From assembly GCA_003214695.1 (NCBI GenBank), contig QCLI01000005.1:1-64000 (forward strand): 64,000 nucleotides of DNA, given 5' to 3'. The notes beneath the pieces were generated by a model, which was not told the DNA's origin, did not search any database, and saw only the letters and a program-made list of their open reading frames with translations. Made by a program: the position numbers and the translations under genes. The stretch's first letter is position 1. Each line of letters begins with the position of its first letter. This document shows positions 191 to 35,305 of the stretch, one piece after another. The stretch is from Prochlorococcus sp. AG-412-P08. Lineage in GTDB: Bacteria; Cyanobacteriota; Cyanobacteriia; PCC-6307; Cyanobiaceae.

Positions 191-1807
191 ATGAGTCTAG
201 AGCAATCCAATCAGGGAAAGATTGTCCCATCTGTCTTGGACGATGCAAAAGTCTTAATAATTAGGCTGCCATGTAATCCAATATTTCCTATTGGTCCAAT
301 CTATTTAGCTGATCATCTGCACAAATGCTTCCCACAATTACCTATAAAGATCCTTGATCTTGCAGCACTGCCTGTGATTGATGTGGAAAGAGTTTTGATA
401 TCTCATATCAAAATTTTCCAGCCTTCATTATTGGTTTTTTCCTGGAGGGATATCCAAATATATGCTCCAGTTGATGGCCGCGGAGGCAACCCACTACAAC
501 ATTCTTTTGAAGCTTTTTATGCAAAAAATCCATTAAGGAAACTCCGAGGAGCATTTGGTGGCATTCGATTAATGAAAAGTCATTACGGTGAACTATGGAG
601 AAATCAACGTTTAATTAAAAAAGGGCTGAAAGAAGCAAAAATTTATAAAAAAGATGCTCAGGTCTTAATTGGAGGAGGAGCAGTCAGTGTTTTTTACGAA
701 CAACTTGGGAGGTCTCTGCCAAAAGGAACAATAATTTCAATCGGCGAAGGGGAACCGTTATTAGAAAAATTACTGTTAGGTCAGTCTATAGATCAAGAAA
801 GGTGTTTTGTAGTTGGTCAAGACCCTAGAAGCGGACTAATACATGAGCAACCTACAAGCTCCATTAAAACGGCATGCGATTACCAATATATTGCTTCAAT
901 CTGGCCACAATTCCATTGGTATCTTGAAGGAGGGGATTTCTATATCGGAGTTCAAACAAAGCGTGGGTGCCCGCATAATTGTTGTTATTGCGTTTACACA
1001 GTTGTTGAAGGTAAGAAAGTTAGGGTCAATCCTGTAGAGGAAGTCATTAAAGAAATTAGGCAGTTATACCAACTAGGTGTCCGCAATATCTGGTTCACCG
1101 ATGCTCAATTCATTCCAGCACGACGCTATATAGAAGATGCTAAAGAACTTCTCAGAGCAATTCATAGAGAGGGAATGGTTAACATGCACTGGGCTGCATA
1201 TATTCGAGCAGATAATCTCGATGCAGAATTAGCATCCTTAATGGTCCAAACAGGAATGAGCTATTTTGAGATAGGTATCACCTCAGGTTCCCAAGAATTA
1301 GTAAGGAAAATGAGGATGGGATATAACTTAAGAACAGTTTTGGAAAATTGTCAGTTGCTTGCAGATGCAGGCTTTCGAGACAATGTCTCTGTAAATTACT
1401 CATTCAATGTTATCGATGAAAGACCAGATACTATTCGTCAAACTATTGCTTATCATCGGAAATTAGAAAAGATTTTTGGCGCAGAAAAAGTTGAACCATC
1501 TATTTTCTTCATAGGGCTTCAACCACATACCCATTTAGAGCAATACGGATTTGATCAAGGTCTAATAAAACCGGGATATAACCCAATGAGTATGATGCCA
1601 TGGACAGCTCGAAAACTTCTTTGGAACCCTGAGCCAATGGGGCAAACATTTGGGAGAATTTGCTTAGAAGCATTTGACTCTTGTCCCCATGACTTTGGAC
1701 GTACTGTAATGGATTTACTAGAAAGAGACTATGGAGCAGCATCTTTAAATGAAGCTTTACGTTCTCCATTAAAAGGACGACCTGCTATGGCAAAAGCTTT
1801 CCAATAA
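191..1807 (+). CDS. B12-binding-domain type radical SAM protein (resembles the cyanobacterial family annotated as PSII high-light acclimation radical SAM / PhpK-like)
   Basis: 538 aa ORF; N-terminal Rossmann-like region with IGEGEP motif; radical SAM cluster motif CPHNCCYC (CxxxCxxC). Confidence 0.8.
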   Translation: MSLEQSNQGKIVPSVLDDAKVLIIRLPCNPIFPIGPIYLADHLHKCFPQLPIKILDLAALPVIDVERVLISHIKIFQPSLLVFSWRDIQIYAPVDGRGGNPLQHSFEAFYAKNPLRKLRGAFGGIRLMKSHYGELWRNQRLIKKGLKEAKIYKKDAQVLIGGGAVSVFYEQLGRSLPKGTIISIGEGEPLLEKLLLGQSIDQERCFVVGQDPRSGLIHEQPTSSIKTACDYQYIASIWPQFHWYLEGGDFYIGVQTKRGCPHNCCYCVYTVVEGKKVRVNPVEEVIKEIRQLYQLGVRNIWFTDAQFIPARRYIEDAKELLRAIHREGMVNMHWAAYIRADNLDAELASLMVQTGMSYFEIGITSGSQELVRKMRMGYNLRTVLENCQLLADAGFRDNVSVNYSFNVIDERPDTIRQTIAYHRKLEKIFGAEKVEPSIFFIGLQPHTHLEQYGFDQGLIKPGYNPMSMMPWTARKLLWNPEPMGQTFGRICLEAFDSCPHDFGRTVMDLLERDYGAASLNEALRSPLKGRPAMAKAFQ

Positions 1808-33467: not shown

Positions 33468-34067
33468 ATGACTGAATTCCAAGACCCTTTTCTAAAGTCA
33501 TCTGAACCTGTCAAATTAAACCAAAAGTATATTGACAGTTCAGTTCGCCCTGGCGACATAGGGATTGTCGATCAGTGGGCTGTGAACCCAGTTTCGGACC
33601 CCTGCGTTGGAGACTTAGAAACACCAGTTAATTCTGGTTATTTTACAAAAGCATTTATTAATAACCTCCCATTTTATAGAGCTGGGCTTTCACCAAATTT
33701 TCGTGGGCTAGAAGTAGGAGCTGCTTTTGGCTATCTGCTTTATGGACCATATGCAATGACAGGTCCTTTAAGAACTACTGAATTTGCTCTTACAGCTGGT
33801 TTATTAGGGACAATTGGAGCGGTTCATATACTTACAGCCCTTCTAGTTTTATATAATGCCCCTGGAAAGGCTCCTAATGTTCAACCTGCCGATACAATAG
33901 TTGCTAACCCTCCAGCTGATTTGTTTACCCGAGAAGGGTGGGCAGACTTTACAAGTGGCTTCTGGTTAGGAGGTTGTGGCGGTGCTGTTTTTGCATGGTT
34001 ATTATGTGGAACCCTTCATCTAGATACAATTATGCCGATTGTTAAAAATGTTTGGGCAGCAGGCTAA
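33468..34067 (+). CDS. psaL: Photosystem I subunit XI (PsaL)
   Basis: [48 protein letters not shown]. Confidence 0.97.
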
Positions 34068-34087: not shown

Positions 34088-34140
34088 AATAATAAAACCC
34101 TAGTAGATGGACTCGCTCCTCCTACTAGGGTTTTATTATT
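34088..34140 (+). terminator. Strong terminator downstream of psaI-psaL
   Basis: AATAATAAAACCCTAGTAG / CTACTAGGGTTTTATTATT: 19-bp perfect stem, symmetric A/T tracts. Confidence 0.9.
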
Positions 34141-34285
34141 AGAAATGCCTCATCAACCTCTTATTCAATACACAAAGATATTTAATAGATCAAGGCAAGA
34201 TTTAATCCATTAGCTAAATCAAATATTCCTAATTTCTTTTTTGTTTTGTTGGCTTAATCCTCTAAAAAATTCAAATAATTAATCA

Positions 34286-34317
34286 ATAAAAAAGCCCGCT
34301 CAAGGCGGACTTTTTTA
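34286..34317 (-). terminator. Rho-independent terminator of the Yfr2-like RNA
   Basis: Minus strand AAGTCCGCCTTGAGCGGGCTTTTTT (stem with one G-U wobble, T run). Confidence 0.8.
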
Positions 34318-34378
34318 TGAGATCTTGAGCAAGTGTTTCCTAGTTTCCACTGCTCGGAGAATCTCTGCTCCTCACACA
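34286..34378 (-). ncRNA. Yfr2 / Cyano-1-like small RNA
   Basis: Minus strand: GTGTGAGGAGCAGAGATTCTCCGAGCAGTGGAAACTAGGAAACACTTGCTC... hairpin with two GGAAAC repeats, followed by terminator AAAAAAGTCCGCCTTGAGCGGGCTTTTTT; AATAAT -10-like box upstream. Confidence 0.65.
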
Positions 34379-34594
34379 AAAATTATTGCATATGATTTTA
34401 AAATTGCTCAACGCATTGGATAGCAAGGAAAACTGTCACATGTGACAGTTTAATTGTCCATAAATAATCAGAGTCTAAATGTAAAAAACATATCGAAGCG
34501 AAGGGAGCAGTAAAAAGTAAGAGGATCCTTTTGTAATCCCTAAAAACATAACCTGGTGATCTAAAAGTTCTGGAAGACATTCAAAGGAGATGTA

Positions 34595-35305
34595 TCAGCC
34601 CTGGCTGGAGCGTTGAGATGAAGACAAGTAATTCCTCTCCCAAACGGTGAAGCCGGCCAAGCAGAAGGTTAACCAAACATACCCAACCGCCGCGCCAGCA
34701 AGGATATCACTTGGCCAGTGGGCTCTGGAATAGAGAGTACTAGACCAAACAAGAGCAACCCACAAGCTAGAGAACACAAACAAAGGCAAGCGCAGTCGAG
34801 GATAGTGCGCAGCTATCATGGTGCAACTCATGAAATAAAAGACCACTGATCCAGCGGCATGGCCGCTGGGAAAGCTGCTACCTGTTAAGGAAAGAAGTGA
34901 ACCGCCAGGACGTGGACGATCAAACCATGGCTTCAAGATTTTATCGACTATTACCAGGATGCCACCAGTTCCAAATACTAAACATATCAAGTCTTGCCAA
35001 AAGCATTTCAAGGCAAAGAAAAACAACACAGCAAACACCAAACCCCCTGTAACATGGACCCCGCTCAGTTTATAAATAACTAGTAGGAAAGATCCCAAGC
35101 TAGAAGGAATATTCTGAATAAAGACGTCTAGTAGCTGATGGTCCAGTGAATTGACAGAATTAATTACCAAGCTTGGAGCCGCCCAAACCAATAGAAGCAA
35201 TAGCAATACAACAAAAGTAATACGGGGCAATCCGAGAACCTTAAACCACTCAAGAAGCAAACTAGTCATGGAGATAAAGGAATCTATTGCATATGATGGG
35301 AGCAA
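34595..35305 (-). CDS. PAP2-superfamily phosphatase
   Basis: KPWFDRPRPGG ... SFPSGHAAGS ... SRAHWPSDILAG: three PAP2 motifs. Confidence 0.92.
   Translation of the reverse strand: MLPSYAIDSFISMTSLLLEWFKVLGLPRITFVVLLLLLLVWAAPSLVINSVNSLDHQLLDVFIQNIPSSLGSFLLVIYKLSGVHVTGGLVFAVLFFFALKCFWQDLICLVFGTGGILVIVDKILKPWFDRPRPGGSLLSLTGSSFPSGHAAGSVVFYFMSCTMIAAHYPRLRLPLFVFSSLWVALVWSSTLYSRAHWPSDILAGAAVGYVWLTFCLAGFTVWERNYLSSSQRSSQG

Follow-up and report, generated by a model that had tools for sequence, protein, structure and literature searches.

Few small RNAs (sRNAs) of cyanobacteria are as conserved and as abundant as Yfr2. On the minus strand of contig QCLI01000005.1 of Prochlorococcus sp. AG-412-P08, an unannotated element next to psaL combines a doubled GGAAAC loop with a complement of the Yfr1 core motif. 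The locus thus raises the question of whether this is a gene of the Yfr2 family and with which RNA its 5' end might pair. The window referred to below is the whole stretch of DNA analysed, namely the first 64,000 nucleotides of the contig.

A yfr2 gene convergent with psaL

The gene, its parts and its neighbours are located in the window as follows:

33468..34067 (+), psaL, convergent neighbour (PF02605, E 1.9e-56)
34286..34377 (-), yfr2 (Cyano-1) sRNA gene, placed by RF01701 match, fold z and register to SS120 yfr2
34286..34318 (-), Rho-independent terminator with strong hairpin and U-run, RNA end near 34286
34327..34355 (-), hairpin GAGCAGTG/CACTTGCTC with one bulged U and a 12-nt loop with doubled GGAAAC
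34382..34387 (-), -10 box AATAAT with TG just before it
34595..35305 (-), PAP2-family phosphatase gene, upstream of yfr2 on the same strand (PF01569, E 1.4e-14)

The Rfam covariance model RF01701 (Cyano-1) matched positions 34315-34381(-) over its full length (model 1-69 of 69) with 54.4 bits against a curated cut-off of 41 bits, and the E-value of 1.1e-6 (64 kb against all Rfam) is far beyond chance. The earlier note had suggested membership in Yfr2/Cyano-1 and had named this model as the check; run here, it bore the suggestion out. Judged by its sequence, 34286..34377(-) is a genuine sRNA gene of the Yfr2 family.

The predicted fold of the 92-nt sequence has a z of -3.6, equalled in 1 of 200 shuffles. 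The parts previously read from the letters were all recovered, namely the AATAAT -10-like box on the minus strand (34387-34382), the hairpin with one bulge and two GGAAAC units in its loop (GAAACTAGGAAA), and the T-rich terminator, a strong hairpin followed by a U-run ending near 34286. It should be added that the box is accompanied by only a weak -35, and that shuffled regions yield a promoter-like site of equal quality about once each. An additional outer stem pairs 34361-34365 with 34319-34323, giving a stem region in two parts (34365-34319), and the 5' segment partly self-pairs, weakly, in the predicted fold. Loop residues were invariant across 51 aligned Yfr2 sequences; RNAalifold recovered from this alignment the five loop-proximal pairs alone, probably because stem lengths vary.

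The start of the gene at 34375-34377 is placed by homology, which gives a predicted RNA of approximately 90-92 nt. Genus member G002, which we take to be Prochlorococcus SS120, has its RF01701 match at 556643-556707(-), and this was set against the published SS120 gene as a check on the identity of Cyano-1 with Yfr2. The latter was published as complement(556612..556701), 90 nt (PMC1242208), and its 5' end is the G of GTGAGGAG, i.e. window position 34375 in this register, so that the first GT of the 10-mer GTGTGAGGAG may lie just outside the RNA.

The window gene resembles the Yfr2-Yfr5 family (RF01701; PMC1242208, PMC2662882) in its 12-nt GGAAAC-repeat loop, bulged stem, conserved 5' end and terminator, and its predicted 90-92 nt compare with 89-95 nt in that family, whose several copies occupy shifting loci; we see no essential difference, the position convergent with psaL being a feature of this subclade. 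It is an ordinary additional member of a long-known family, for which the idea of the mechanism and its test have already been published. New details are the yfr2-only 22-bp palindrome in the genus, the psaL linkage limited to the closest relatives and a second class of hairpins with the Yfr1 motif.

Copies and genomic neighbourhood

The family was present in 56 of the 61 genomes searched. Three RF01701 matches were found in the genome itself (82.8% complete), which therefore holds at least three yfr2 copies; a fourth was probably lost in an assembly gap beyond contig 28, the end of which is occupied by a Yfr10-like hairpin and the upstream palindrome (C28:1-110, L188). In five genus genomes, this one included, yfr2 is convergent with psaL (one of these loci is interrupted by a contig end), and their PsaL is 95-100% identical to that of the window, whereas no RF01701 match was obtained beside psaL at eight more distant genus psaL loci. 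The linkage is therefore a local arrangement of the subclade, in keeping with the lack of synteny for which the family is known.

These data also bear on the origin of the element. Lying convergent with psaL and downstream of the same-strand PAP2 gene, it might be dismissed as a by-product of psaL/PAP2 transcription, arising by 3' processing or as an antisense RNA and not functioning as an sRNA. We regard this as highly improbable, as family copies occur at unrelated loci and are absent at the eight more distant psaL loci, a conserved -10 box, a palindrome and a terminator belong to the element itself, and psaL has a terminator-like inverted repeat of its own.

Two minor observations concern the loci as such. 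The inverted repeat after psaL (34089-34141) is long and near-perfect, and is probably the psaL terminator. A degenerate yfr2 missed by the Rfam model (L186, G003:C1 near 1290037) has kept its Yfr10-like hairpin intact; its palindrome is partly decayed.

The 5' segment and the absence of Yfr1

The part of the gene that would engage in pairing comprises:

34368..34377 (-), 5' segment GTGTGAGGAG, complement of CTCCTCACAC
34368-34375 (-), conserved core GTGAGGAG of the 5' segment

The plus strand carries CTCCTCACAC at 34368-34377 and the minus strand therefore reads GTGTGAGGAG. The perfect 10-nt complement to the Yfr1 core claimed for this site is thus exact in the window, but the full GTGTGAGG(A/G)G occurs in only 2 of 41 genus yfr2 copies (that of the window and the G008 orthologue), and the two bases at its 5' end are possibly upstream of the start. 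The leading G is missing in two of the four psaL-linked orthologues, and hence the perfect match is not conserved even among them. The core GTGAGGAG is kept in 38 of the 41 copies. Elsewhere in the genome CTCCTCACAC has a single site, which was rejected as a Yfr1 remnant, since it sits within a 422-aa ORF.

Pairing of the Yfr2 5' end with a Yfr1-type motif is real biology of this family. Complementarity of Yfr2-type 5' ends to Yfr1/Yfr10-type motifs was proposed in 2008 (PMC2518516), and Yfr1/Yfr2 pairing was supported in 2019 by pull-down, RNase E assay and an E. coli reporter in which MED4 Yfr2 lifted the repression by Yfr1 (PMC6778093). The mechanism is accordingly known, and it is only its use in this lineage that we infer.

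What did not stand is Yfr1 as the partner. The earlier note had made its proposal depend on a Yfr1 with an accessible motif in the same genome, and RF01116 found none there, which goes against the proposal in substance; likewise, no match was obtained in any of the 14 genus genomes, of which three have a completeness of 99% or more, and ACTCCTCACAC was not found anywhere in the 82.8% complete genome. Among other members of the family or class, Yfr1 was found in 24 of 27. This agrees with the published loss of Yfr1 in SS120 and MIT9211 (PMC2190773), and Yfr1 was rejected as partner, being missing from the genus. In comparison with the published Yfr1-Yfr2 interplay (PMC2518516, PMC6778093), the Yfr2 5' end is alike in complementing the CUCCUCACA motif; in this genus without Yfr1, however, the partner would be a Yfr10-like RNA.

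Yfr10-like hairpins as probable partners

The genome has predicted RNAs that expose the Yfr1 motif in a loop, as Yfr10-Yfr2 pairing would ask of a partner:

C28:94-102 (-), Yfr10-like hairpin with ACTCCTCACA in the loop, then terminator
C23:13924-13932 (-), Yfr10-like hairpin with ACTCCTCACA in the loop, then terminator, just upstream of another yfr2

Sequence and modelled folds point to Yfr10-like RNAs, which hold ACTCCTCACA in an open loop, as the likely partners in this genome. The predicted duplex between them and the window Yfr2 has -17.3 kcal/mol, or -15.3 kcal/mol if Yfr2 starts at 34375, and equally strong duplexes arose in 0-2 of 500 shuffles. An alignment of 17 genus sequences, from which one misplaced row had been left out, had 97% of pair cells formed, and its cells with two-sided changes exceeded those of all 500 shuffles. 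Furthermore, a ACTCCTCACA-type motif lies 93-148 nt upstream on the same strand in 15 of the 41 genus yfr2 copies. The tested loci of these hairpins matched no Rfam family.

The Yfr10 family (PMC2518516, PMC6778093) likewise has the Yfr1 motif in a stem loop followed by a terminator, often directly upstream of yfr2. Yfr10 has been reported in SS120, and the yfr10-yfr2 tandem was described for high-light strains (PMC6778093), whereas here it occurs in an SS120-type genus without Yfr1. The window yfr2 copy differs in having no adjoining Yfr10-like hairpin, the Yfr10-like RNAs of this genome being located at other loci.

We consider it very probable that the locus is a yfr2 gene whose RNA pairs through its 5' segment with a Yfr10-like partner, each titrating the other, and whose transcription is probably controlled through the palindrome. 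Once expressed, the gene would yield a structured RNA, about 90 nt long, in which a 5' GUGAGGAG segment is combined with the doubled GGAAAC loop. On the model of Prochlorococcus MED4, this 5' segment would base-pair with the CUCCUCACA motif of partner sRNAs, GUGAGGAG lying against CUCCUCAC, and in this Yfr1-less genus the partner would most likely be a Yfr10-like RNA. Mutual titration would then alter the access of the partner to its mRNA targets.

The 5' segment is conserved also in genomes that have Yfr1, and it may serve other targets. In a rival reading, the GGAAAC loop is the chief site of action of Yfr2, with mRNAs or a protein as its target, and the 5' segment is preserved for reasons such as direct mRNA targets or RNase E recognition instead of titration of Yfr1/Yfr10-type RNAs. 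The invariant loop residues of the 51 aligned sequences and the conservation of the 5' segment despite the loss of Yfr1 are consistent with it, as are the many other RNAs enriched in the MED4 Yfr2 pull-down and the cleavage of Yfr2 by RNase E (PMC6778093). We nevertheless find it unlikely, given that the genus retains several further RNAs whose loops carry the exact motif, many of them encoded immediately upstream of yfr2, and that Yfr2 relieved Yfr1 repression in E. coli (PMC6778093). A lineage that has lost Yfr1, yet in which almost every Yfr2 copy retains the complementary segment and several motif-bearing RNAs persist, amounts to a natural test of whether selection acts on the pairing of the two sRNAs or on the individual RNA.

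A yfr2-specific palindrome and its candidate regulator

Titration by a Yfr10-like partner, as favoured here, would be combined with control of yfr2 transcription, probably through the following site and perhaps by a single GntR protein:

34430..34451 (no strand), perfect 22-bp palindrome AAACTGTCACATGTGACAGTTT, candidate operator

Its centre is about 64 nt upstream of the yfr2 start. Of the 41 genus copies, 25 have a matching half-site 58-61 nt before the start of the RF01701 model. Elsewhere in the family it occurs in 11 of 39, at 58-64 nt in all but one, where the distance is 25; an 18 kb control flank contained none. All 20 genus-wide sites with at most two mismatches from the 18-bp core adjoin yfr2 loci: 18 at model matches, one beside the degenerate yfr2 of G003 and one at the contig-28 edge. 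Within the genus, a spacing of 20 bp goes with GTGGAAAC-loop copies (18) and one of 19 bp with GTCGAAAC-loop copies (6).

In MED4, two yfr2 genes have been assigned to the GntR regulator PMM1637, whose site may already be defined in a 2018 paper on GntR/PMM1637. The present genome has one GntR-domain gene, encoding a protein of 328 aa, and AAACTGTCACATGTGACAGTTT is perhaps the operator of this protein, which makes the palindrome a concrete site for testing the regulator. That the palindrome might terminate an RNA from further upstream was not favoured, because its U-run is unconserved and it keeps an almost constant distance from the yfr2 start.

As a separate observation, the symmetry is stretched to perfect palindromes of 31-53 bp at L167 (G028:C4), L107 (G004:C11), L105 (G003:C1) and L102 (G002:C1), with arms that differ from genome to genome.

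A second class of motif-bearing hairpin elements

A two-hairpin element with ACTCCTCACA in a loop was found at C21:2321-2338(+) of the same genome (L090, L212) and at eight further genus sites (relatives at L208, L209, L210, L214, L215, L216, L219 and L221); at four loci it stands tail-to-tail with a yfr2 copy. In the alignment (n=9), 93% of pair cells are kept and two-sided changes occur at three pairs. The two loci tested (L212, L208) matched no Rfam family. For the copy of this genome, folding predicts that some of the motif is base-paired, and the net binding computed for it is weak.

It is quite possible, if short of probable, that two structurally distinct classes of loop-motif RNAs sustain the Yfr2 network in this SS120-type genus, which lost Yfr1: the Yfr10-like ones, often just upstream of yfr2, and the two-hairpin ones, tail-to-tail with it at four loci. 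Some of the yfr2 copies would be coordinated by a yfr2-specific palindromic operator. The setting without Yfr1, the palindrome and the second motif class are useful leads.

Finally, positions 237-292(+) of locus L212 (G000:C21) gave a match to the Glutamine-II riboswitch aptamer with 32.8 bits, just under the curated 33.
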